From contig JAFGRT010000053.1 in the NCBI GenBank assembly GCA_016935015.1, positions 1-48,813 of the forward strand: 48,813 bases of DNA, given 5' to 3'. This document shows, one piece after another, positions 30,433 to 43,202 of this stretch; positions within the stretch are counted from its first letter, which is position 1, and every line of letters begins with the position of its first letter. The DNA comes from Acidobacteriota bacterium. GTDB lineage: Bacteria; Acidobacteriota; JAAYUB01. The notes below the pieces were generated by a model. The model was not told the origin of the DNA, made no database searches, and saw nothing but the letters and a program-made list of their open reading frames with translations. The position numbers and the translations under genes are program-made.

Positions 30433-31056
30433 ATGATGGCCACAGCGGAACACACAATCACGGGCGAGACCATGGCGACAGCCGGGAATATGGAGCAGAC
30501 GCGCGAGGCGGCCTGGGTGGAAGCCAGCCGCCGCGGCGACAGCCGGGCCTTCAATCATCTGGTGCTGCGATGGGAAAAACCCATCTTCGGGCTGGCCTGG
30601 CGGATGCTGCGCAGCCGCGCCGAAGCGGAAGAGGCCACCCAGGAGATCTTCCTGTCGGCCTACAAGGCCATGCACCGCTTTCGGCAGGGCGCCCGCTTCT
30701 CCACCTGGCTGTACCGCATCGCCACCAACCACTGCATCTCCCGCTTGCGGCGCCGGCCGGCCATTTTCCAGGTGCCCATTGCCGATCAGGTCGACGAGGA
30801 CGAGACCGTCAAACCGGCCCAGCTGCAAGTGTCCCCCACCCATGAAGCGGATCTGATCCGTGCGGACACGCGACGCGAAGTGGTGGCGGCCCTGACCGGT
30901 CTGAATGAAGAGCAGCGACTGGTGGTGGAACTCAAATTCTACCAAGAGCTGACCTTCGAGGGGATCGCCGAAATTCTTGAGATCCCTACCAGTACCGTCA
31001 AATCACGTTTCTACACGGCCCTGGGCCAGTTGAAATCGAGTCTGACGGAGAATTGA
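30433..31056 (+). CDS. ECF-type RNA polymerase sigma factor
   Basis: About 190-207 residues. Region 2 shows FNHLVLRWEKPIFGLAWRML with AEEATQEIFLSAYKAM and WLYRIATNHCISRLRRR. Region 4 shows LNEEQRLVVELKFYQELTFEGIAEIL and STVKSRFYTALGQL, the helix-turn-helix that reads the -35. The linker between them is short and acidic, as in group 4 sigma factors. The start is uncertain: ATGs at 30433, 30436, 30472 and 30490 are possible and none has a strong ribosome-binding site. It is followed 39 bp later by a zinc-finger anti-sigma gene, so the pair forms a signalling unit. Confidence 0.9.
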   Translation: MMATAEHTITGETMATAGNMEQTREAAWVEASRRGDSRAFNHLVLRWEKPIFGLAWRMLRSRAEAEEATQEIFLSAYKAMHRFRQGARFSTWLYRIATNHCISRLRRRPAIFQVPIADQVDEDETVKPAQLQVSPTHEADLIRADTRREVVAALTGLNEEQRLVVELKFYQELTFEGIAEILEIPTSTVKSRFYTALGQLKSSLTEN

Positions 31057-31095
31057 CACCGGGATCCGGTGCCGCCGGAGCAACGGAGGAATGAC

Positions 31096-31893
31096 ATGAA
31101 TGACGAATGCCGACTTATTCAACCCAACATCGCCGCCGCCCTGCTGGGCGAGCTGGCGGCCGAAGAAACCGCACGGGTGAAACGGCACGTGGCCGAATGC
31201 CCCACCTGCGCCGCCGAGCAGGAAAAATACGCGCAGTTGTTCCGGCAGATGGAAACGGCCCGTAACGCGGAGCCGCCGCGCCATTTTTTCGTGTATGCCG
31301 AGGAAGAGCAGGGCTTCCTGGGCCGGTTTTTCCTTTCGCCGGGCCGGCGTTGGGCACTGGCCGCCGGACTGGCCGCGATCCTGCTCATCAGCGTGACCCT
31401 TAGCGGTAGGCCCTGGCTGCGCTGGGACAACGGTACGGTCATGCTGGGCCTGGGCGCTCCGCCCGCTGTCCAGACCGCCGCGGACATCCAGCGGGAACTG
31501 TCGACCTTCCGGGTGGCCCTGCTGGCCGAGCTGTCGCGCCGCGAGCGGCTTGAATCGGCACGGAATCAGGAATTGCTGCGCCAGGAACTGGCCGCCTGGC
31601 TTGGCAGCCTCTCCCGCCAGCAGCAGGATTACCTCGAGCTCCGGCTGACCGAGCTGGAAACCCGTTTCGGCGACCGGCTGCAGACCACCGAAACAGCCCT
31701 GCGTGACGGGACTGAACAGCAGGTCGCCGGCCTGTACACGCTGCTGCAGGACGAGCGCAAGGCGGAGCTGCAGGCCATGAACGACCGGATCGTCCGTCTG
31801 GCCACCCGCAACGAATTGCGGGCCGACCAAACGGATGTGATGCTGGCCACCCTGCTGGAGGTGTCGGACCCGCGGCTGCGAAGCAGAAACTGA
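31096..31893 (+). CDS. Zinc-finger transmembrane anti-sigma factor with coiled-coil C-terminus
   Basis: 265 residues. The cytoplasmic N-terminus carries the ZAS motif His31-x3-Cys35-x2-Cys38 with an additional Cys5. One membrane segment (RWALAAGLAAILLISVTLSG, near 83-102) follows. The outer part (about 130-265) is rich in Glu, Gln, Arg and Leu and probably forms a long coiled coil (REL.TFRVALLAELSRRERLE and later heptads). Strong GGAGG ribosome-binding site 6 bases before the ATG at 31096. It would hold the upstream sigma factor until a signal reaches the outside domain; the signal is unknown. Confidence 0.87.
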   Translation: MNDECRLIQPNIAAALLGELAAEETARVKRHVAECPTCAAEQEKYAQLFRQMETARNAEPPRHFFVYAEEEQGFLGRFFLSPGRRWALAAGLAAILLISVTLSGRPWLRWDNGTVMLGLGAPPAVQTAADIQRELSTFRVALLAELSRRERLESARNQELLRQELAAWLGSLSRQQQDYLELRLTELETRFGDRLQTTETALRDGTEQQVAGLYTLLQDERKAELQAMNDRIVRLATRNELRADQTDVMLATLLEVSDPRLRSRN

Positions 31894-31938
31894 AAGTAAC
31901 ACGTAAACCATTTACATCAAAAAATGTGAGGTGCAATC

Positions 31939-32709
31939 ATGAAAAAAACGTGGATCGTCGTGTGCGCAAGTACCCTTGTCCTGGCCATCGCCCTCGGGCT
32001 CACCGGCTGGGCCCAGGACGCCCACTCGTCCCTGTTCGACACCCGCCGGACGGGCCGTGAAGTGGAGATCATGAAAGGGATCCTGGAAACCACCCTGCAA
32101 TACGCCCTCAAGGACTCCCGGCCGGAAAAGAACGCATCGACCAATGCCCACTATCTGCGGGGAGCCTATTTTTTTGCGGAAACCCGGATCGGGGGCTATT
32201 ACCTCTACGGCCAGGGTGCCGTGTTCACCATTTCCGGCGAGAGCCTGATGGACTCCTTCGGTGACGACCATGGCCCCATGTTCCTCACTGCCGGCGACGA
32301 GCTGCTGTTCGCTGAGGATCTGGCCGGCCAGGAGTACGTTGAAGCCGAAGAAGAGATGGAATCCGACGATGAACCCAGCCCGGCCACCAAGGAAAAGATG
32401 AAAGAGCGCATCGCCGCAGCTAAGGAGCGCATGAAGAAAAAAAAGGAAGAGGCTGAAAAGCGCAAAGCCGAATTTCAGCAGGCCCTGGGCAGCATCAAGG
32501 TCCAGCTGGTGGAAACCCTGGCCACCCATGGCGATTCCCTCTCCCAGGTGGGGCCCGACGAGTACATCACCCTCATCATCACGCCCGTCCGCGAGGTCAT
32601 GCCCCGACCGCAGATCATTTCGGTGAAACGCTCCGTGGTGACGGACTTCAAGACCGGCCGCCTCACCCTGGACGCCTTCCGCGGCAAGGTGCTGCAGTAC
32701 ACCAATTGA
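31939..32709 (+). CDS. Secreted charged coiled-coil protein, function unknown
   Basis: 256 residues with a clear signal peptide (MKKTWIVVCASTLVLAIALG, cleavage likely after GWAQ). The mature part has a beta-like domain with GGYYLYGQGAVFTISG and GPMFLTAGDEL. A strongly charged helix follows (about 135-180, with KEKMKERIAAAKERMKKKKE), then a second globular part ending in VTDFKTGRLTLDAFRGKVLQ. It has a GAGGTG ribosome-binding site and lies 45 bp after the anti-sigma gene, so it probably belongs to the same operon. I do not recognise the family. It could be the output or the sensor partner of the sigma/anti-sigma pair (inference). Confidence 0.75.
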   Translation: MKKTWIVVCASTLVLAIALGLTGWAQDAHSSLFDTRRTGREVEIMKGILETTLQYALKDSRPEKNASTNAHYLRGAYFFAETRIGGYYLYGQGAVFTISGESLMDSFGDDHGPMFLTAGDELLFAEDLAGQEYVEAEEEMESDDEPSPATKEKMKERIAAAKERMKKKKEEAEKRKAEFQQALGSIKVQLVETLATHGDSLSQVGPDEYITLIITPVREVMPRPQIISVKRSVVTDFKTGRLTLDAFRGKVLQYTN

Positions 32710-32712
32710 CAA

Positions 32713-32758
32713 TGAGGATTTCCCGCCGACGCATCCTGCTGTCGGCGGGAAATCCTCA
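32713..32758 (+). terminator. Strong hairpin at the end of the sigma-factor operon (no U-tract)
   Basis: Eighteen-base perfect arms (32713-32730 and 32741-32758) enclose a 10-base loop, starting 4 bases after the stop codon. No T-run follows on either strand. It could work as a non-canonical terminator or as a 3' end stabiliser. Confidence 0.6.
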
Positions 32759-33103
32759 GCGACTGTATCTGGTCCATGCTAGAAGCACTTTGACCGTTCC
32801 GCTATCCCTCACGGACGCGCCACCCTGATCCTGGCTTGCCTGCCTGGTCGTAACACCTTCGCCACCTGGCCCCATCACCGAAAAACCACAGCCGTTCACC
32901 CCGACCATCGTCATGCTTTATCTGCCATCGACACCCGGAACGGCCTTTGTTACACTTTGTTACAGGATGGAAAAACTGGCGAAAAGGCACTTTGCTACCT
33001 TACAGTCGTCGGCAATACCGGTGACGACGCCGGCCCGGCTCCGGACGCACCGCCGGTCGACCACCAAGCGGCAGGCCGGTCCTTCCGGGTAAAAGGAGTA
33101 ACG
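32759..33103 (+). other. Intergenic region before the OmpR-type regulator
   Basis: 345 bp between the operon hairpin and the regulator gene. It contains the repeat block described at 32947-33005. No gene was recognised on either strand. The regulator frame is open upstream to 32957, but the start at 33104 has the ribosome-binding site. Confidence 0.55.
32947..33005 (+). promoter_or_regulatory. Operator-like direct repeats upstream of the response regulator
   Basis: TTGTTACA at 32947-32954 is repeated exactly at 32957-32964 (10-bp period). A variant TTGCTACC follows at 32992-32999, and the element TGGAAAAA is at 32968-32975. The same layout occurs upstream of the RND operon. Tandem repeats in phase with the helix are typical of OmpR/PhoB family binding, which fits autoregulation by the gene at 33104 (inference). 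Confidence 0.65.
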
Positions 33104-33793
33104 ATGGGCGATACCATTCTCATCATCGATGACGACGTCAATCTCAACGATCTGGTTACCACGTACTTGAGCGGCTTTGATTACGGCGTGGAATCCTGTT
33201 CCGATCCGACCACGGCTGTGGACCAAATCAAGACAAAGGACTTCCAGTTGATTATTCTGGATGTCATGATGCCGGGCATGGACGGGTTCACTGTTCTGCG
33301 TAAAATCCGTGACATCTCGCGCGTGCCGGTGATCATGCTCACCGCCTGCGGCGAGCTCACCGACCGGGTGGTGGGTCTGGAACTGGGCGCCGACGACTAC
33401 CTGGCCAAGCCCTTTGAGCCGCGGGAGCTCCTGGCCCGCATCCGTAGCGTCCTGCGCCGTTTTCAGAATGCCGGCCAGGCCGCCCGTTTGGTTCCGGAGA
33501 CCAAAGAACACGGGCTCGCGCTGCAGCCGGAAAAGAAACAGGCCAGGCTGGACGGACAGCCGCTGGATCTGACCTCCATGGAATTCGACTTCCTGGAGCT
33601 GATGATGGCCAATAAAGGCCGCGTCCTCAGCCGTGACTACATCATGGATCGCCTCAAAGGCTATGAATGGGAGGCCTATGACCGGTCCATCGATATTCTG
33701 GTCAGCCGGGTACGCTCCAAGCTGGGGGATTCACCGGCGGATCCCATCTTCATCAAAACCGTGCGCGGCGCCGGTTACATGTTTATCGGGTAA
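33104..33793 (+). CDS. OmpR/PhoB-family response regulator
   Basis: 229 residues: a receiver domain with acidic pocket IDDD, phospho-acceptor Asp53 in ILDVMMPGMDG, Thr in MLTA and Lys in AKPFEP, then a winged-helix DNA-binding domain with LDLTSMEFDFLELMMANKGRVLSRDYI and VSRVRSKLGDSPADPIFIKTVRG-type wing (GAGYMF at the end). AAAGGAG lies 5 bases before the chosen ATG; the frame extends 49 codons upstream without similarity. It is followed 3 bp later by its kinase gene. The downstream RND operon carries the same operator-like block as this promoter. Confidence 0.94.
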   Translation: MGDTILIIDDDVNLNDLVTTYLSGFDYGVESCSDPTTAVDQIKTKDFQLIILDVMMPGMDGFTVLRKIRDISRVPVIMLTACGELTDRVVGLELGADDYLAKPFEPRELLARIRSVLRRFQNAGQAARLVPETKEHGLALQPEKKQARLDGQPLDLTSMEFDFLELMMANKGRVLSRDYIMDRLKGYEWEAYDRSIDILVSRVRSKLGDSPADPIFIKTVRGAGYMFIG

Positions 33794-33796
33794 ATA

Positions 33797-35173
33797 ATGA
33801 AACACTTTTATTTCAGACTGTTCAGCATTGTTCTCGTTTCAGCGCTGGTCATTACCGGCCTGGTATTCTGGTTGAACCGCGTGTACCGGGAACTGGAAAT
33901 GAATCCGCTACGCTACGAGGGCTTCCGCCACTATCTTGTCCACCGCGTGCTCGAAGCCGTAGAATACCGGCAAGAGAGCGATCTGCTGGAAATATCCAAC
34001 GATTTCCGCTTTTATATCCAGTTGACGGGACCCCAGAATTCCCTCATCACCCACCCCGACTATTTCGATTCGGACGAGTTCACCGGCCTGCAAAAGGGGG
34101 AGATCCCCTCGGACCGGGACCGCGAGCACCGCGGCTCGCGCAACCGCCGGCCACCCCGCGAGGCACCCGAACTGAGACCGGATGTCAAGGGCCTCTATGA
34201 AAACGATGTCCTGCAGGGCCTGGAGATCAAGTACGGCGTGATCAGCTGTTTTCTGGTACGGCAACCGCCGGATTTCTGGAAACGGGTCTTTTTCTATAGC
34301 TTGATCCTGAGCATTTTCCTCGTCTTCCTCGGGCTGGCGGTGACGGTGAAATTGTGGTTCGTCGACCCATTGAACCGGCTGGAGAAAGCCATCAGCGCCT
34401 TTCCCGCCGAGTTGGATTCGGGTGAGTTCCATTCGCAGGAAGGAAGCCTGCGCCAGTTGTTCAAGACCTTTCATGAAATGAAGAAACAGGTGACGACCCT
34501 GATGGAAGACAAGGAGCGCCTGCTGCGGGATGTCAGCCACGACCTGAAATCACCCATCACCCGGATGCGGATGGCCGTTGAACTCCTCGACGAATCCAAG
34601 GTCAAAAAAATGCTGCTCAATGACCTGGGTGACCTGTCGGTAATGGTCACCAAGATCCTGGAAAGCCGCCAGGGCAAGATCATCCGCAACCAGCTGCTGG
34701 ACGCGGCCGTCTGCATTGAGCGGTTTCGCGGTTCCCGGGAATTCGCCATCCCCATCCGGCTGGACGTTGCCGCGGACTTCCGGTTTGAAGGGAACGAATA
34801 CCAGCTGGCTCGCGTCTTCCGCAATCTCATCGAGAATTCGGAAAAATACGCCGATCCGGGCAAGGGCATCGACATTGAAATCTCTCGCCAGGACCAGCAT
34901 GGTTTCATCGTTTTTTCCGATTTCGGCAGCCACATCACCGACGAGGAGATCGAGAAGATTTTCGAGCCTTTCTATAAATCCGACCAGGCTCGCCGGCAGG
35001 ATTCCCGTAACGGTTACGGCCTCGGCTTGTCCATCTGCAAGCAGATCATCGAAGTCATGGGGGGACAGATCAATGCCGGCCGATCCGCCGGCGCGGGGCT
35101 CAGTATCGAGCTGGTCTTTCCGATCGCGGAGACCAATGAGGTCGAGACGGCCTCTCCGCATTCCAGCCAGTAA
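33797..35173 (+). CDS. Membrane sensor histidine kinase
   Basis: 458 residues. Two membrane segments (about 6-26 and 163-185) flank a periplasmic sensor domain with an Arg-rich, proline-rich loop near 110-130. A HAMP-like linker follows, then the HisKA helix with His248 in DVSHDLKSPITRMR, the N box FRNLIENSEKYA, a G1-like segment SDFGSHITDEEIEKIFEPFYK, and a G2 segment NGYGLGLSICKQI. In G1 the usual D-x-G-x-G becomes D-F-G-S-H. The gene begins 3 bp after the regulator and forms a two-gene operon with it. The signal is not known; envelope stress or toxic compounds are likely given the neighbouring pump. Confidence 0.93.
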   Translation: MKHFYFRLFSIVLVSALVITGLVFWLNRVYRELEMNPLRYEGFRHYLVHRVLEAVEYRQESDLLEISNDFRFYIQLTGPQNSLITHPDYFDSDEFTGLQKGEIPSDRDREHRGSRNRRPPREAPELRPDVKGLYENDVLQGLEIKYGVISCFLVRQPPDFWKRVFFYSLILSIFLVFLGLAVTVKLWFVDPLNRLEKAISAFPAELDSGEFHSQEGSLRQLFKTFHEMKKQVTTLMEDKERLLRDVSHDLKSPITRMRMAVELLDESKVKKMLLNDLGDLSVMVTKILESRQGKIIRNQLLDAAVCIERFRGSREFAIPIRLDVAADFRFEGNEYQLARVFRNLIENSEKYADPGKGIDIEISRQDQHGFIVFSDFGSHITDEEIEKIFEPFYKSDQARRQDSRNGYGLGLSICKQIIEVMGGQINAGRSAGAGLSIELVFPIAETNEVETASPHSSQ

Positions 35174-35178
35174 GCAGC

Positions 35179-35209
35179 GGATGCAATCCTTTTCCGGCTG
35201 ATTGCATCC
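35179..35209 (+). terminator. Hairpin after the histidine kinase gene (no U-tract)
   Basis: Ten-base perfect arms GGATGCAATC/GATTGCATCC enclose an 11-base loop, 5 bases after the kinase stop. A second hairpin CCCGGC-TTTTTG-GCCGGG lies at 35285-35302. Neither has a T-run, so termination is uncertain. Confidence 0.45.
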
Positions 35210-35341
35210 ATGAGCATGGAGCCGCCCCAAGGTCCTGAGGCAAAAGTTCTTTGCGACACCGGGAGTTTACGGCTGATTTTGGAACCCGGCTTTTTGGCCG
35301 GGCGTATCCACGGTTTTGACAAGTAAATCCCGAAAAACCAG

Positions 35342-35401
35342 TTGTTACAAAATGATACACATTGGAAAAATCGCGGAAAGATCTTTTTGATACAAATACA
35401 G
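35342..35401 (+). promoter_or_regulatory. Operator-like direct repeats upstream of the RND efflux operon
   Basis: TTGTTACA at 35342-35349, ATGATACA at 35352-35359 and TTGATACA at 35387-35394, plus TGGAAAAA at 35363-35370. All elements have the same spacing as in the block at 32947; 35 of the first 52 positions are identical without gaps. The adaptor start codon is 66 bp downstream. No convincing -35/-10 pair is seen between them, which fits an activator-dependent promoter. Confidence 0.65.
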
Positions 35402-35466
35402 ATGATAACGGGCGGACGACCGCTCTTTGCTAGAAATGAGTTCTATAACGTACAGGAGAAGGATAC

Positions 35467-36870
35467 ATGAAGATCATCACCATCAGTCTGGCAGCGATCC
35501 TGCTGACCGCCACCCTGGTCCTGAGCGGGTGCGGTGGAGACGCGGCCGGTAACAGCCAGGCACCCCGTTCGTTCATGGGTGACATGTCGGCACAGCAATC
35601 CGCCCCGGAAATTTCCGTCAAGGCGCAGCAGGCGGTCCGCGGCAGTGTCGCCACGTTCATTCTGGCCTCCACCACACTCGAGGCCAAACGGACAGTGGAC
35701 GTCTACAGCAAGGGCACCGGTCTTGTCGAAGAGATGAAATTTGAAGAAGGTGACCGGGTCGGCAAGGATCAGTTGCTGGTCAAACTGGACGAGCGGGAGG
35801 TCCTCAACGATTACAACCAGGCCAAGCTGGCGGTGGAGCAGGCGGAAATCGCCCTGCAGCAGGCCCGGGTTCGAAAAGAGCAGGCGGCCAGCGACTACGA
35901 GCGGAACGAGCAGCTGCTCAGGGAAAACCTGGTCAGCCAGCAGGAATACGACCGGACCAAACTGGATGACAGATACGCCCAGTTGACGCTGGATGACAGC
36001 GAGTACGCTTTGACCGTCAGCCGGGAACGATTTGAGGCAGCCAAGATCCAGCTGGAAAACACCGAGATCCGGGCGCCCATAACCGGCATCGTTTCCGCCC
36101 GCATGGTGGAACTCGGCCAGATGGTCCGGGCCAACGATCAGGTATGCACGCTGACGGACATGGAGCATCTGCTGGCCCGGGTGCACATTCCCGAGACGGA
36201 CATTCAGCGGATCTCCACCGGCCAGAGCGCCCGCATCGAAGCGGAATCGCTGACTGGCCGTGAATTCCGCGGCACCGTCACCCTCATCAGCCCGGTCATC
36301 GATTCCGAAACGGGAACGGGCAAGGTGACCATAGAAGTCACCGACCGCAGCGGCAACCTGAAACCGGGGATGTTCGTCAATGCCTACCTGACGACTTCAG
36401 TCCATGACAACGTAATCAAAATCCTGCGCAAGGCCGTCTGGCACGAAAAAGAAGAGGACTGGGTATTCATCGTAAAGGAAGACAACACGGTGGAAAAACG
36501 CCGCATAGAAACCGGGTATACCGAAGAGGACTGGGTGGAGATCAAGAACGGCGTCAATGAGAAGGAACTGGTAGTGACCGTCGGCCAGGATAGTCTGGAT
36601 GAGGGGTTTCCCATCAAGATCGCCGAATATGAAGGCCCTCCGCCTGCCAACGGTTCGCTGCAGGCGGAGACGCCACCCCCTCCCCAGCCGAGTGGTCCGC
36701 AACGGGGCGGCCGTGGTGACATGCGTGCTCAGATGCAGGCCCTGATGGAGAATCCCGAGGCACGCAAGGCCATGATGGAGGCCCGGGAAAAGAATCCCGA
36801 AGTATTTCAGGATCCGGAGAAGCGTCGCGCGTTCTTCCAGGAGCTGCAGGAAAAATACGGAAAGAAGTAA
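35467..36870 (+). CDS. RND efflux periplasmic adaptor (membrane fusion) lipoprotein
   Basis: 467 residues. A lipoprotein signal with lipobox LSGC (Cys22) is followed by the adaptor core: a lipoyl half (VDVYSKGTGLVEEMKFEEGDRV), a coiled-coil hairpin (about 115-195, with EQAEIALQQARVRKEQAAS), the second lipoyl half (IRAPITGIVSARMVELGQMV), and beta-barrel and membrane-proximal domains. After about residue 395 there is a proline-rich linker and a charged helical tail (MRAQMQALMENPEARKAMM and onward), which is not part of the usual adaptor fold. GGAGAAGG precedes the ATG. It starts the pump operon; the next gene begins 3 bp later. Confidence 0.93.
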   Translation: MKIITISLAAILLTATLVLSGCGGDAAGNSQAPRSFMGDMSAQQSAPEISVKAQQAVRGSVATFILASTTLEAKRTVDVYSKGTGLVEEMKFEEGDRVGKDQLLVKLDEREVLNDYNQAKLAVEQAEIALQQARVRKEQAASDYERNEQLLRENLVSQQEYDRTKLDDRYAQLTLDDSEYALTVSRERFEAAKIQLENTEIRAPITGIVSARMVELGQMVRANDQVCTLTDMEHLLARVHIPETDIQRISTGQSARIEAESLTGREFRGTVTLISPVIDSETGTGKVTIEVTDRSGNLKPGMFVNAYLTTSVHDNVIKILRKAVWHEKEEDWVFIVKEDNTVEKRRIETGYTEEDWVEIKNGVNEKELVVTVGQDSLDEGFPIKIAEYEGPPPANGSLQAETPPPPQPSGPQRGGRGDMRAQMQALMENPEARKAMMEAREKNPEVFQDPEKRRAFFQELQEKYGKK

Positions 36871-36873
36871 ATC

Positions 36874-39800
36874 ATGAAAATCGTCAATTTTTCAGTGCGC
36901 CGCTCGGTGACGACGGCCATGCTCATGCTGGCCCTGGTGGTTTTCGGCTCGGTCTCCTACAACCGACTGGCCGTCAACCTTTTGCCCGATATCACCTATC
37001 CTTCCCTGACCATCAAAACCGAATATGAGGGTGCCGCCCCGGCCGAAGTGGAAGATGTCATCACCAAGCCCATCGAGGAATCGGTAGGCGTGGTCGATAA
37101 CATCATGCGCGTTTCCTCCATCAGCCGTCCCGGGGAATCTTACGTGATCCTCGAATTCGCCTGGGGCACGAACATGGATTTCGCCGGCCTGAACGTCCGG
37201 GAAAAGCTGGATCTGGTGATGCTGCCGGATGATGCGGAAAAACCGGTCCTGTTGAAATATGATCCTTCGGCTGATCCGATCCTCCGCTACGGCGTGAGCG
37301 GCAATCAGACTCTATCGCGCTCGCGGCTGCTCATCGAAGAAAAAGTCAAGCCTTATCTGGAAAACATCGAGGGTGTGGCCGCCGTCAAGATCAACGGCGG
37401 TCTCGAAGAAGAGATCTATGTGGAGCTGGACAGCGGCAAACTGAATGCCTTCCGTCTCTCCATCACCCAGGTCACCCAGCGGCTGAGTCAGGAGAACATC
37501 AATTTGACAGGCGGCATCCTGGATGAAGGCCGGCGTCGTTACCTGGTCCGGACACTGAGCCAGTTCCAGCGGGTGGACGAAATCGACGACGTCATCGTGG
37601 CCCGCCGCGGGGGAGCCAATATCACCCTGGGCGATATCGCCCGGGTGTATTCCGGGTTCAAGGAACGAACCATCATCACCAAGCTGAATGGTGAAGAGGT
37701 CATCGAACTGGCGGTTTACAAGGCCGCCGACGCCAACGCCGTTCTGGTGGTGGACGCCGTCAAGACCCGCATGGACGAGATCCTTCCCAACGTCAACGTA
37801 GCCGGCACGAAACTGGAGTTCACCACCGTTTTCGACCAGTCCATTTTCATCCGCCAATCCATCGACGAAGTGCTCAACACCGCCATGCTGGGCGGCATCC
37901 TGGCCATCCTGATTCTCTTTCTTTTCCTGCGCAACCTCAAGAGCACCGCCATCATCTCCCTGTCCATCCCCATTTCGGTAATCGTAACTTTTTTCTTCAT
38001 GTACCTGTCGGACATCACCATCAACATCATGAGCCTGGGTGGCCTGGCCCTGGGTATCGGTATGCTGGTGGATTCGTCCATTGTTGTCCTGGAATCCATC
38101 CAACGCTACCGGGAAGAGGGGATGAGCATGCTGGAATCGGCCCGCATCGGCGCCGGCAGCGTCGGCAAGGCCGTGGTGGCCTCCACCCTGACCACCGTCT
38201 GCGTGTTCCTGCCCATCGTTTTTGTCGAGGGTGTCGCCGGCCAGCTCTTCTCCGACCTGGCCCTGACGGTGACGTTCTCCCTCAGTGCCTCGCTGCTGGT
38301 CTCCCTGACCCTGATCCCCATGCTGGCCGCCAAACAAATCGCCGAGAGCCTCGAAGCCGCAGCCGACGTCCAGCACAAGCTGGCCAGCACCCATCCGGTA
38401 GCTCGATTCTTTGCTTTTATTTTCCGCCGGATTCCCGCCTTTCTTCTGGGATTTGTCCTGCTCCTGCTGCGGGGACTTTGGACAGGCATCCAGATGATCA
38501 TCTGGCCGCTGACCTTCCTGTTCGAGAAACTGTATGATGTGGTCCAGGCATCCTACACGCAGCTGATCCGTTTCGCCATCGGTCACCGGTTGGTCATCCT
38601 GCTGCTGGCCCTGGCGGTACTGGCGGCGGCCAGTTTCATCCCCCCCTTTCTGGGCTCGGAGCTGATCCCCGAAGTCAAACAGGGCCAATTCTTTTTGTCC
38701 ATCGAGCGCGAGCAAGGCACCCCCCTGTTCAGAACCCAGGAGACAGTTGATCTGCTGACTGAACGAATCAAGTCCCTCGACGGCGTGTCCGCTGTATTTG
38801 CCCTGACGGGCCTGAACCTGCAGACAGGCATGAGCGTGGAGGAGGAAAAGGAGAATGCCGCCCGGTTGACCGTCAATCTCGAACCGGCCGTCGCTCTGGA
38901 GCGGGAGGACGTGATCCTGGAACAGGTCCGGCACATTGTGGAACCGCTGCCCGGTCTGGACTACAAGTTCAGCCGCCCCACGTTCTTCAGTTTCAAGACA
39001 CCCATCGAGGTCTTTGTCCAGGGCTATAACCAGAATGTACTCTCCCAGGTAGCCGGCGCCATCTCCAGCGAGATGGCGGAGATCAACGGCCTGGCCGATC
39101 TCAAGACCAGCACCGAAGCCGGCAATCCCGAGGTACAGGTCCGGTTCAACCGCGATCGCCTTTCGGCCTACGGACTTACGGTGCAGGAAGTCGCCCAGTT
39201 CATGCGCAACCAGATTCTGGGCGATGTGGCCACTGAATTTGTGCGTCCCGAGCACAAGGTAGATGTCCGGGTGCGCCTCGCCGAAGAGCAGCGCCAGACC
39301 CTGGCCGATATCCGCAACCTGAAGATCCACACCAGTTCCGGCGCAGTGATTCCGCTCCAGGCCGTGGCCGAGCTTGAAGTGACCCAGGGGCCGGCGGAAA
39401 TCCGTCGCCTCAACCAGCAGCGGGTGGCCCTCATCAGCGGCAATATCGAAGGGCGTGATCTGGCCAGTGTCGTGGAGGATATTCACCAGGTTCTGGCCGC
39501 CTCGCCCATGCCGCCCAATTTCACCGCCTTTCTGGGCGGGCAGAGCGAAGAGCAGGCCGTGGCCTTCCAGAGCATGAGCTTCGCCATTCTACTCGCCATC
39601 TTTCTGGTGTATCTGGTCATGGCTTCCCAGTTCGAATCCCTGCTGCAACCGTTTATCATTATGTTCTCCATTCCCTTTTCGCTCATCGGCGTGCTGCTGA
39701 TTCTTCTCCTGACGGGCCAGACCATTAGTGTGGTGGTCTTTATCGGCGCCATCGTTTTGGCCGGAATTGTGGTCAACAACGCCATCGTGCTCATCGATTG

Positions 39801-40056
39801 CATCAACCAGCTGCGGGAAGAAGGAGCCGACAAAACCCAGGCGGTCATCCGCGGCTGCCACCTGCGCTTCCGGCCTATCCTGATGACCACGGCGACAACG
39901 GTCCTGGGCCTGCTGCCCATGGCCATCGGCTTCGGCCAGGGAGCCGAGCTGCGTACGCCCATGGCCCTGACCATCATCGGCGGCCTTCTCTCGTCGACAC
40001 TGCTGACGTTGGTGCTGGTGCCCGTCCTGTATCACCTGGTTGTGAGGGAAAAATGA
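36874..40056 (+). CDS. RND family inner-membrane efflux transporter (first of two)
   Basis: 1060 residues, AcrB-like: an N-terminal membrane helix (SVTTAMLMLALVVFGSVSY), two large periplasmic loops and two sets of helices in the order expected for 12 membrane segments. TM4 reads GMLVDSSIVVLES, so only the first of the two Asp residues of AcrB (407/408) is kept; the second repeat has GIVVNNAIVLIDCIN. A hydrophobic insertion of about 60 residues lies between TM6 and TM7 (residues about 500-560, with AFLLGFVLLLLRGLWTG). The gene is 3 bp after the adaptor and overlaps the next by 4 bp. Drug, lipid or metabolite export is likely; the substrate is unknown. Confidence 0.94.
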   Translation: MKIVNFSVRRSVTTAMLMLALVVFGSVSYNRLAVNLLPDITYPSLTIKTEYEGAAPAEVEDVITKPIEESVGVVDNIMRVSSISRPGESYVILEFAWGTNMDFAGLNVREKLDLVMLPDDAEKPVLLKYDPSADPILRYGVSGNQTLSRSRLLIEEKVKPYLENIEGVAAVKINGGLEEEIYVELDSGKLNAFRLSITQVTQRLSQENINLTGGILDEGRRRYLVRTLSQFQRVDEIDDVIVARRGGANITLGDIARVYSGFKERTIITKLNGEEVIELAVYKAADANAVLVVDAVKTRMDEILPNVNVAGTKLEFTTVFDQSIFIRQSIDEVLNTAMLGGILAILILFLFLRNLKSTAIISLSIPISVIVTFFFMYLSDITINIMSLGGLALGIGMLVDSSIVVLESIQRYREEGMSMLESARIGAGSVGKAVVASTLTTVCVFLPIVFVEGVAGQLFSDLALTVTFSLSASLLVSLTLIPMLAAKQIAESLEAAADVQHKLASTHPVARFFAFIFRRIPAFLLGFVLLLLRGLWTGIQMIIWPLTFLFEKLYDVVQASYTQLIRFAIGHRLVILLLALAVLAAASFIPPFLGSELIPEVKQGQFFLSIEREQGTPLFRTQETVDLLTERIKSLDGVSAVFALTGLNLQTGMSVEEEKENAARLTVNLEPAVALEREDVILEQVRHIVEPLPGLDYKFSRPTFFSFKTPIEVFVQGYNQNVLSQVAGAISSEMAEINGLADLKTSTEAGNPEVQVRFNRDRLSAYGLTVQEVAQFMRNQILGDVATEFVRPEHKVDVRVRLAEEQRQTLADIRNLKIHTSSGAVIPLQAVAELEVTQGPAEIRRLNQQRVALISGNIEGRDLASVVEDIHQVLAASPMPPNFTAFLGGQSEEQAVAFQSMSFAILLAIFLVYLVMASQFESLLQPFIIMFSIPFSLIGVLLILLLTGQTISVVVFIGAIVLAGIVVNNAIVLIDCINQLREEGADKTQAVIRGCHLRFRPILMTTATTVLGLLPMAIGFGQGAELRTPMALTIIGGLLSSTLLTLVLVPVLYHLVVREK

Positions 40057-43000
40057 ATCTATCGGAACTCTCCGTCCACCGACCCATTACCGTGATCATG
40101 ATGTCCATTATGATCATGGCCCTGGGTGTGATCAGTATCACCAAGCTGCCGCTGGTCTTTTTTCCGGAGATCGACTGGCCCAACCTGCGAGTCCAGGTGG
40201 ATTACCCCTCCTCTTCGCCGGAAGAGGTAGAACAGGATATCACCCAGCCGCTGGAGGATATTCTCGGCACAGTCACCCAGCTGAAGAGCATGTCATCGTT
40301 CTCGAGTAACTCCGGCGCCAACGTCAGCCTCGAGTTCGATTACAACGTCGACATGGATCTCAAGGCGCTGGAAGTGCGCGACAAGATCGACCAGGTACGG
40401 AATCAGTTGCCCGATGATATTCAACGGATCCATATCCGTCGTTGGCAAACATCCCAAAGCCCGATCATGTTTTTCTCCCTGGCCCTGCCCGGCGACATCA
40501 ACCAACTCAATGATTTACTGGAAACGGTCATCGTGCCCCGGCTGGAGCGACAGGAGGGAGTGGCCAGCGTCGACATCCGCGGACCCGACGAGAAAGAGAT
40601 TTACGTAGACGTCAATCCCAGTCTGCTGGCGGCGTATGGTCTGGACATGTTCAATCTCACCCAGTCCATCCGTTCCGGCAACGTGGACCTCTCCACCGGT
40701 TACGCATTCGACAACGATAAAAAGTATTACCTTCGCGTCGTGGGCCAGTTCCGCTCCATCGACGAGATCCGCGACCTGCCCATTCGCGGCACCAACTTGC
40801 GTATCCACGACGTAGCCGACGTCCGCTACACTTTTCCCGAGCGGGACGAGGTCGACCGCCTCAACGGCAAAGATTCCATCAGTCTGCGGATATACAAGGC
40901 TTCAACAGCCAACGTGGTGGAGACCTGTCAGTTGGTGCGGGCCGAACTGGTGCGCATGAGTCAAGCGCCCGAATTCACTGGCATGGAGTACCGCATCTTT
41001 CGCGACTCTTCCGAGGAAATTCTGGGCACTCTCAACAACCTGTCCGAGGGGGGCATCTACGGCGGCCTGCTGGCCGTGTGCATCATCTTCCTCTTCCTGT
41101 GGAAAGTGCGCAGCACTTTCGTCATGGCCCTGTCCATGCCCATCTCGGTGCTTTTCACTTTCGCCGGCATGTACATCCTGCGCATCACCGGCATCGTCGA
41201 CATCACCATTAACATCATCTCGCTGAGTGGATTGGTGTTTGCCATCGGCATGATCGTCGATTGTTCCATCGTGGTGCTGGAAAATATTTTCCGTGTCAAG
41301 CAGGAAGAGGGCATCGGAGCCCTCGAGGCCGCCATCAAGGGCAGCAAGCAGGTGGGCACCGCCGTGTTCGCCTCCACCATGACCACCATCATCGTCTTCG
41401 TCCCCTTCGTCTTTATGTCCCAATCGTCCTTTGGGATTTTCATGCGGGATTTCGGCGTCGCCGTCTCCCTGGCCCTGGTTTCCTCGCTGGTGGTTTCGCT
41501 GACGGTGGTCCCCATGATCTCCTCCCTCATCTACAAGGGGAAGGAACGTCCGAAGAAACGGATCATCGTCTGGCTGACGGACCATTACGGTAACTTCATG
41601 CGCTGGACCCTGCGCTGGCGATACGCCTTGGTGTTCCTGTTGATCCCCCTCCTCTGGGCCAGCTTCACCTTGTTTCAGGCCATCGAACGACAGGAGATGC
41701 CCAACGTTCCTGCGCGGGAATTGCGCGTCAATGTCCTCATGCCGTCCAATTACACCATGAATGAGATGACCGATCTGTTCAACCGCATCGAGGCCGTGGT
41801 GGAGGCCAACAAGAAAGAGTTTGAGGTGGACACCTACTCCACGGAGTGGGGCAAGAACAACCGCAGCCGCAATCGTTACCGCGGCGAGCTGGACCTCTTT
41901 TTCATCGAAGAGGGCACCAAGCTGACGCCGGTCCCCCAGCTACAAGAGGCCGTCCTGGCCAAATTGCCCCAGGAAATCGGTGTCGAGTACCAGGTGGGCG
42001 AACGGCGGCACTTTGGTCGCGGCGGCGGTGGTGGTGTCAGCATCGAGTTGCGGGGTGACAACCAGGAGATCCTGGCTCTCTATGCGGAAAAGGTCAAGGA
42101 ACGCCTGATGGGCATCGAATCCATCCGCGACGTATCCACCGACCTGGAGAGCGGCGACCAGGAGCTTCATTTCAGGGTCAACCGCGACAAAGCCGAAAAA
42201 ATGGGACTCTCCTCGCAATCCATCGCCCGAACCATTTCCGCCGCCCTCAGTGAACGGTCCACCACCCGTTACCAGACGGAAAACGGAGAAGTGGACGTCA
42301 TCGTCCGTTTCGAGGAGGAACGCCGCCGCAGCCAGGACGACATCCTGAACCTGGATGTGGCCACCAGCAGTGGTGAACTGGTGCCGCTGAACACGGTGGT
42401 GCAGCCGGTGTTCGCCAGCGGCCCCCAGGTCATCCGCAAGGAAAATCGCAAGCGGATCGTCACCATCACTGCCAACACCGACCGGCAGGGAATGATGTGG
42501 ATCATGAGCAGTGTCAACGATATCCTGGCTGATCTCAAATTGCCGGCCGGCTATTCTTGGAGCCTGGGCCGATCCTTCTCGCGCTTCCAACAGGATCAGG
42601 AGATGCAATCATTCGCCATCTGGCTGGCCCTTGTGTTCATCTTCATGGTGATGGCTTCGCTCTTCGAATCGTGGATCCATCCCATCACCATCCTTTTCAC
42701 CGTGCCGTTCGCCATCACCGGCATCAGCATCATCTTCTGGGTGACCAACACCCAACTGGATCGCAACGCCTGGCTGGGTATCGCCCTGCTCTGCGGTCTG
42801 GTGGTCAACAACGCCATCATCTTGGTGGATCACATCAATTCGCTTCGCCGGTTGGGCAACCGGCGAATGGAGGCCATCATCCAGGGTGGCAAGGACCGCC
42901 TGCGGCCGATCCTGATGACGGCGTTCAGCACCATGTTCGGCATGGTGCCCATGATCCTGCCGGTCATCTTCCCCGACTGGTTCGGCGTCGTCAGTTACCG

Positions 43001-43202
43001 CGCCCGTCAATGGTCGCCCATCGCCCTCGCCCTGTTCGGCGGCCTTACTACCTCCACTTTCCTGACCCTGATCATCCTCCCCCTGATCTACAACATCGTG
43101 GATGACTTGCGGGAATGGGGCCTGGGTGTGGTGCGCCAGGCGGCCCATATCGGCCGCAAGGCACCGCCCGCGGCCGAGGAGGGGAAAGCGTCCATCTCCT
43201 GA
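40053..43202 (+). CDS. RND family inner-membrane efflux transporter (second of two)
   Basis: 1049 residues from the ATG at 40053, which overlaps the previous stop as ATGA. The frame is open further upstream but lies inside the first transporter gene. It has the same overall layout, with PITVIMMSIMIMALGVISI as the first helix, TM4 GMIVDCSIVVLENI, and GLVVNNAIILVDHIN in the second half. A Gly-rich loop RRHFGRGGGGGVSIEL lies in the second periplasmic loop. The two proteins differ clearly in sequence, so they may form a mixed trimer as MdtB and MdtC do. No outer-membrane channel gene is in the window. Confidence 0.94.
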   Translation: MNLSELSVHRPITVIMMSIMIMALGVISITKLPLVFFPEIDWPNLRVQVDYPSSSPEEVEQDITQPLEDILGTVTQLKSMSSFSSNSGANVSLEFDYNVDMDLKALEVRDKIDQVRNQLPDDIQRIHIRRWQTSQSPIMFFSLALPGDINQLNDLLETVIVPRLERQEGVASVDIRGPDEKEIYVDVNPSLLAAYGLDMFNLTQSIRSGNVDLSTGYAFDNDKKYYLRVVGQFRSIDEIRDLPIRGTNLRIHDVADVRYTFPERDEVDRLNGKDSISLRIYKASTANVVETCQLVRAELVRMSQAPEFTGMEYRIFRDSSEEILGTLNNLSEGGIYGGLLAVCIIFLFLWKVRSTFVMALSMPISVLFTFAGMYILRITGIVDITINIISLSGLVFAIGMIVDCSIVVLENIFRVKQEEGIGALEAAIKGSKQVGTAVFASTMTTIIVFVPFVFMSQSSFGIFMRDFGVAVSLALVSSLVVSLTVVPMISSLIYKGKERPKKRIIVWLTDHYGNFMRWTLRWRYALVFLLIPLLWASFTLFQAIERQEMPNVPARELRVNVLMPSNYTMNEMTDLFNRIEAVVEANKKEFEVDTYSTEWGKNNRSRNRYRGELDLFFIEEGTKLTPVPQLQEAVLAKLPQEIGVEYQVGERRHFGRGGGGGVSIELRGDNQEILALYAEKVKERLMGIESIRDVSTDLESGDQELHFRVNRDKAEKMGLSSQSIARTISAALSERSTTRYQTENGEVDVIVRFEEERRRSQDDILNLDVATSSGELVPLNTVVQPVFASGPQVIRKENRKRIVTITANTDRQGMMWIMSSVNDILADLKLPAGYSWSLGRSFSRFQQDQEMQSFAIWLALVFIFMVMASLFESWIHPITILFTVPFAITGISIIFWVTNTQLDRNAWLGIALLCGLVVNNAIILVDHINSLRRLGNRRMEAIIQGGKDRLRPILMTAFSTMFGMVPMILPVIFPDWFGVVSYRARQWSPIALALFGGLTTSTFLTLIILPLIYNIVDDLREWGLGVVRQAAHIGRKAPPAAEEGKASIS

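Follow-up and report, generated by a model that had tools for sequence, protein, structure and literature searches.

Tandem RstA-type boxes precede a two-component operon and an RND pump operon in an Acidobacteriota genome: putative operators of the adjacent response regulator

The stretch of DNA analysed here, 48,813 nucleotides long and called the window below, is contig C55 of an Acidobacteriota genome (GCA_016935015.1; 4.75 Mb, 237 contigs, 96.8% complete). It contains a two-component operon, encoding a response regulator and a sensor histidine kinase, followed on the same strand by an operon for a resistance-nodulation-division (RND) efflux pump that consists of a periplasmic adaptor and two permeases (Table 1). 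Upstream of each operon lies a block of similar sequence, at 32947 and 35342, respectively, and the first-pass annotation of this DNA had proposed that, through these blocks, the regulator controls both its own operon and the pump. The regulator is a member of the OmpR/PhoB family, with both Pfam domains above the cut-off (PF00072, 103.3 bits; PF00486, 83.4 bits); in a sequence search of the PDB, it matched nine regulators at E≤1e-30, the best being RegX3 and MtrA, with BaeR third, which speaks to family membership only.

The similarity of the blocks is real. The ungapped identity of 35 out of 52 positions given in the first-pass annotation was reproduced, lengthening the alignment to 59 positions adds no further match, and no other ungapped 52-bp pairing of the two intergenic regions, which measure 394 and 293 bp, matches as well. 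Among 300 Markov-shuffled pairs, the best match had a mean of 26.3 and a maximum of 31, and none reached 35. As claimed, the flanking DNA appears otherwise unrelated, with no run of similarity common to both flanks when judged by eye, and the ATG of the regulator indeed lies 99 bp past 33005. What the blocks share is a box of two tandem half-sites, both perfect in block 1 (TTGTTACA CT TTGTTACA), and one perfect and one degenerate in block 2 (TTGTTACA AA ATGATACA). On both strands of the window, the core of this box, TACA-N6-TACA, occurs in the two blocks only. Likewise, TTGTTACANNTTGTTACA with up to 3 mismatches is found at just these two places in the window, with 0.03 occurrences expected.

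Table 1. Genes and sequence elements at the two-component and pump operons (coordinates of the window)
Feature	Position	Strand	Remarks
Box 1, tandem half-sites TTGTTACA-N2-TTGTTACA, core TACA-N6-TACA	32947..32964	+	5' of regulator operon
Two GAAA elements, 11 bp apart, box 1 region	32970-32975, 32981-32985	+	similar elements at like offsets in relatives
Putative extended -10 TGCTACCTT, regulator promoter	32993..33001	+	46 bases from box start
Response regulator, OmpR/PhoB family	33104..33793	+	229 aa; Pfam Response_reg and Trans_reg_C; recognition helix DRSIDILVSRVR
Sensor histidine kinase	33797..35173	+	458 aa; HisKA and HATPase_c
Box 2, TTGTTACA-N2-ATGATACA, core TACA-N6-TACA	35342..35359	+	5' of pump operon
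Two GAAA elements, 11 bp apart, box 2 region	35365..35379	+	between box and -10
Putative extended -10 TGATACAAA, pump promoter	35388..35396	+	46 bases from box start
RND periplasmic adaptor	35467..36870	+	467 aa; TIGR01730 above cut-off, HlyD_D23
RND permease 1	36874..40056	+	1060 aa; ACR_tran; RND_permease_2 and MdtB/MuxB models match below cut-offs
RND permease 2	40059..43202	+	1047 aa; ACR_tran; RND_permease_2 and MdtC models match below cut-offs

The genus of this bacterium is represented by its genome alone and the order by six genomes, the other five of which yielded no kinase match at E≤1e-30. Among 396 genomes of the phylum searched with the kinase (E≤1e-25), identity of 38-40% over the length of the protein was found only in G018, G227, and G275, all of family f15; two more f15 genomes, G123 and G211, match at 30-32% identity over residues 137-444 only. 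Together with G398, which came from a family-wide search, orthologs of the regulator, 50-61% identical, are present in six of the nine f15 genomes. When the upstream regions of these orthologs are aligned, a check that the first-pass annotation had called for, the tandem box is found 5' of the regulator operon in all six genomes, with 0-3 mismatches. The 10-bp spacing of the half-sites is kept in these relatives; the second half-site in G227 and G398 ends in TACG, so that the TACA-N6-TACA core is not universal. An LTXXQ-like gene separates the box from the regulator in G123 and G211, where the two genes probably form one operon; other box-preceded LTXXQ-like genes are found once each in G018 and G275 and twice each in G227 and G398. 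Six of these eight genes were compared with Pfam: four (in G123 and G018, and on G398:C3 and G227:C146) pass the LTXXQ cut-off of 24.3 and two narrowly miss it (G227:C9, 23.9; G275, 21.3), and the calls for G211 and G398:C34 were made by eye. G275 also has a HlyD-ABC-MacB operon with a 2-mismatch box.

Nine of the f15 promoters, from six genomes and two genera and thus not mutually independent, were aligned without gaps to produce a sequence-only profile (R1) that includes no sequence from the window. At E≤10, R1 has seven matches in the window's genome, namely, on contig C211 (32.1 bits), block 1 (25.1), C120 (19.4), block 2 (15.4), C215 (14.4), C70 (13.6), and C210 (9.2), so that the window blocks rank second and fourth in 4.75 Mb. 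Block 2 is telling because of where it lies, with the kinase on one side and the pump operon on the other of a 293-bp gap; the score itself is weak. In 24 control genomes of the phylum without a close ortholog (one of these, G010, has a 47% regulator relative, and base composition differs among the genomes scanned), matches at E≤1 were found in nine, the best at 15.3 bits. Seven f15 matches outside the training set score 21.6-42.4 bits. Three of these precede LTXXQ-like genes (G398:C3, G227:C146, and G398:C34), two are found at genes for 965- and 973-aa proteins with signal-like starts (G018:C26 and G275:C21, the protein on the latter without a Pfam match; one of the two sites was read on the strand of its gene), one precedes the gene for an S15-type peptidase (G398:C47), and one lies at a contig end (G018:C54).

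In family f27, G128 encodes the regulator and the kinase, followed by an operon for an outer-membrane efflux protein (OEP), a HlyD-type adaptor, an ABC ATPase, and a MacB-type permease. Within the 19.8 kb read in this genome, sites with up to 3 mismatches occur only before the regulator and before this MacAB-type efflux operon, with TTGTAACA as the downstream half-site of the latter; the regulator box was not equalled in any of 100 shuffles. In G279 of the same family, five R1 matches, from 33.2 to 16.5 bits, lie on the regulator's 21-kb contig (L321, L297, G279:C121); none of the five directly precedes the regulator, and the genes behind them encode 4Fe-4S, Yip1, M28/M1-peptidase, and PD40 proteins and one protein without a Pfam match. 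A wider search for relatives (best 80 of 592) reached many phyla, with a top identity of 48%; among the rows listed, three loci from proteobacterial metagenome-assembled genomes (L042, L048, and L049) have upstream tandem repeats resembling TTGTAACA/TTGTTTC or TTGTTACG, with 3 mismatches, an observation made without a null model, from which we claim nothing.

The box is of the RstA type. According to a study of the Klebsiella protein, the RstA box is TACATNTNGTTACA, with the classic form TACA-N6-TACA, and the second DNA-binding domain contacts bases through Arg200, Ser201, Val204, and Arg208, with Arg199, Val203, and Arg207 named too (PMC4117788). Both window blocks contain this core, and at the four contact positions, which were mapped onto E. 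coli RstA, the window regulator has Arg, Ser, Ile, and Arg, that is, three identical residues and a Val to Ile replacement. All eight regulators examined from box-bearing genomes (the window's genome, G018, G227, G275, G123, G211, G128, and G279) have SR at the end of the helix motif and are close in this helix to E. coli RstA (DRSVDVAISRLR), which also has SR; at the same position, E. coli CpxR has SN, BaeR has KN, and a paralog on contig C158 of the window's genome has SS (DRSVDVHVSSLR). Among nine relatives without an upstream box, seven have SS, SK, or SL and two (G229 and G060) have SR. Because the overall identity of the window regulator is highest to CpxR (41%, compared with 35% to BaeR and 32% to RstA of E. 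coli), the sequence points to RstA-like recognition rather than RstA orthology. The two systems differ in other respects as well: the window regulator scores 156.1 bits against the RstA equivalog model NF007977, below the cut-off of 330, no RND pump is found in 10 kb around rstAB of E. coli K-12, and the targets predicted here are Bae/Cpx-like.

The first-pass annotation likened the layout to BaeSR-MdtABC with a different site. The likeness holds, inasmuch as the K-12 region has a two-component system beside an adaptor and two RND permeases, and the box is indeed unlike the published BaeR motif, TTTTTCTCCATDATTGGC (PMC3915751); the site is of the RstA type, however, and not of a new type. Furthermore, the regulator genes in the window lie before the pump, not behind it, in the order response regulator-kinase, and the next forward gene listed 3' of the pump operon encodes a VWFA protein and is not of the mdtD type. 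None of the Bae/Mdt equivalog models reaches its cut-off (BaeR, 182 vs 380; BaeS, 102 vs 603; MdtA/MuxA, 137 vs 391; MdtB/MuxB, 439 vs 1584; MdtC, 417 vs 1774). With CpxRA, the locus shares, in addition to the regulator identity given above, a kinase core that, in a low-confidence model (mean pLDDT 64, with the PDB structure search informative for the core alone), appears to be closest in fold to CpxA; the LTXXQ (Spy/CpxP-type) genes behind the box in relatives are also reminiscent of the Cpx response, and no LTXXQ gene was found on the window's contig. However, the helix differs from that of CpxR at the RstA-type positions, and the CpxRA equivalog scores are below the cut-offs (CpxR, 176 vs 341; CpxA, 108 vs 486). 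The CpxR box is a GTAAA repeat, from which the window box differs as well. The curated cut-offs, together with the helix residues, led us to reject a BaeR-type or CpxR-type identity of the system.

The first-pass annotation also described a third TTG(C/A)TAC copy at offset 45. These letters are present in both blocks, but the nine aligned promoters of the relatives contain no half-site there, and, in five sites of the window's genome, the position is occupied by TGnTATAAT-like letters (TGCTACCTT, TGATACAAA, TGATATGTT, TGTTATGAT, and GGCTATGAT). We therefore rejected this copy as a repeat and favor an extended -10 as the reading of the element. It starts 46 bases from the box start in four of the five sites and 47 bases in C215; the summed matches amount to 30 of 40, a value that none of 2000 shuffles reached, and offset 46 comes first among 97 offsets even with just the three sites outside the original pair. 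The R1 match covers this region at C211 and not at the other four sites. TGATATACT begins at offset 51 in four g16 regulator promoters, five bases beyond the position in the window's genome, and two g83 promoters contain TTGAAA-17-TATACT. In the window's genome, the best -35 elements match at just 2-3 of 6 positions (for block 1, another -10 was chosen in that scan). In these sites and in the f15 regulator promoters, 31-37 bp separate the end of the box from the -10 downstream; with transcription assumed to start 7 bases past the -10, the window boxes would span about -61 to -44. PhoB/OmpR-family activators bind at about this distance upstream of the -10. The GAAA pairs (Table 1) may represent additional, weak half-sites that cover the -35 region.

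The window's contig yielded no outer-membrane channel gene (PF02321). The C211 box, the top R1 match, starts 269 bp 5' of the first start codon in the gene for an OEP protein of 540 aa (PF02321, 138.9 bits; also matched by TolC-type NCBIfam models, with scores under the cut-offs). The window's genome has eight OEP loci (17 matched stretches), four of which (C152, C3, C226, and C59) adjoin RND genes; at three (C156, C193, and C97), no RND genes were seen, but a contig end lies within 0.8 kb. No RND genes were found in 18 kb near the C211 gene, and because it stands alone in this way, unlike the four loci with RND neighbors, this orphan channel is a good candidate for the outer-membrane component that the window's pump lacks. 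The C120 site precedes the genes for a beta-barrel outer-membrane protein (PF25183) and a VWFA protein (TIGR03436 'acidobact_VWFA' proteins are encoded in the window and next to the C120 site), and the C215 site precedes M16 peptidases; these two operons are possible, weaker targets. Around the two LTXXQ genes of the window's genome, 14 and 9 kb were read, and no box was found there with up to 4 mismatches. Separately, a near-palindromic TGTTACAATTTGTAACA is present in this genome at L004 (G000:C159:7105-7121) and may be recognized by a regulator of another type.

Directly 5' of the regulator operon, the window region 30433-32709 encodes an extracytoplasmic function sigma factor, a zinc-finger (zf-HC2) anti-sigma-like protein, and a third protein with no Pfam or NCBIfam match above cut-off, possibly a second envelope-stress module. 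A very strong hairpin (32713-32758; -38.8 kcal/mol, z -7.4), with no T run after it, separates block 1 from the gene upstream, and no Rfam match was obtained over 32000-36000.

The proposed control by the regulator of the pump and of the two-component operon is supported by the box at the f15 orthologs, the presence of both blocks among the top four R1 matches, the absence of any control match above 15.3 bits, and the layout of G128. We consider it likely that the blocks are operators of the regulator encoded at 33104, through which it would activate its own operon, the pump operon, the orphan channel gene at G000:C211, and possibly the two envelope operons at G000:C120 and G000:C215. Under this scenario, an envelope signal would cause the adjacent sensor kinase to phosphorylate the regulator, which would then dimerize, bind the half-sites spaced by 10 bp, and activate promoters in which a poor -35 is combined with an extended -10 some 30 bp 3' of the box. 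Such a circuit would resemble the Cpx, Bae, and Rst envelope-stress systems, in which envelope trouble is sensed and answered with more efflux and quality control, and positive autoregulation combined with activation of the pump and channel genes appears to be the simplest account.

The sign of regulation is not given by sequence alone, and the regulator could bind the same boxes and repress both itself and the pump; in G128, the box lies directly next to a TTGACA-like -35, an arrangement that would be compatible with repression. The distance from the box end to the -10 in the window's genome and f15, however, is that of an activator in the PhoB/OmpR family, and the poor -35 elements also argue against repression, which we regard as unlikely. 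Somewhat less credible still is control by a different OmpR-family regulator, with the pump and the two-component operon as joint targets rather than an autoregulated pair. Boxes of this family resemble each other, and the genome does encode a second CpxRA-like system, L323 (G000:C158:12000-26000), near an LTXXQ gene, with a regulator 42% and a kinase 27% identical to those of the window. However, the box tracks the clade of the 33104 regulator across genomes, whereas the region of the paralog contains no box in 14 kb with up to 4 mismatches, and the paralog lacks SR in the helix. Chance, or features common to any two A+T-rich promoters with no shared regulator, might be invoked given the lack of clear genome-wide enrichment of the bare motif and the weakness of block 2 on its own, but is highly improbable in view of the 35 identities against a null maximum of 31, the recovery of both blocks by a profile made from relatives only, and the conservation of the box at orthologous regulators.

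Several observations nevertheless weigh against operators of the 33104 regulator. The genome-wide scan advocated in the first-pass annotation does not discriminate: a search of the window's genome for TGTTACANNNTGTTACA, with at most 2 mismatches, returns 12 rows, compared with 9 for the reversed-pattern control, although block 1 is the sole exact match and block 2 one of the five 1-mismatch rows. By R1, block 2 alone is level with the best control match, and background in the box-bearing G211 extends to 16.1 bits; moreover, for 8 of the 24 control genomes, scoring covered just 150 candidates out of the 204-1356 from the first look. Likewise, R1 reported neither G128 box at E≤0.5 (150 of 1331 candidates scored). 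Orthologs are absent from G001-G003, which belong to the same family as the window's genome, so that no close relative tests the pump promoter, and no RND pump was found beside the regulator in the five f15 loci read (8-12.5 kb each). Among 24 regulator relatives from other families (loci L224-L247; 43-56% identity), 23 have no box that beats all 100 shuffles in the 450 bp upstream, G128 being the exception; this boxless set includes G229, with its SR helix, and G279, with boxes elsewhere on the contig. Finally, the f15 LTXXQ promoters have no clear extended -10 (4-6 of 8 matches), and three f15 promoters have a -35 that matches at 5 of 6 positions.

Whether this is an old envelope-stress circuit of the phylum, in which the regulator, the RstA-type helix, and the box were conserved while the pump was exchanged, seems to us evenly balanced. 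The exchanged targets would be the RND pump and the orphan channel in the window's genome, the MacAB-type pump and channel in G128, Spy/CpxP-type proteins in f15, and ferredoxin-type, peptidase, and other membrane or exported proteins in G279. Such a circuit would amount to a Cpx/Bae-type regulon that operates through an RstA-type DNA code outside Proteobacteria. The finding is well supported, extending to a little-studied lineage a kind of stress circuit that is already known, and the surprise is moderate. For this lineage, it provides a testable regulon with an operator, a promoter geometry, and a likely pump partner, the C211 channel, which is suggested by the shared box and would be beyond the reach of gene neighborhood. 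The helix signature (SR as opposed to SS, SN, or SK) is tied to the presence of the box across distant genomes, with two exceptions, and this link may serve as a small natural test of how the DNA specificity of OmpR-family regulators persists while the target genes turn over.

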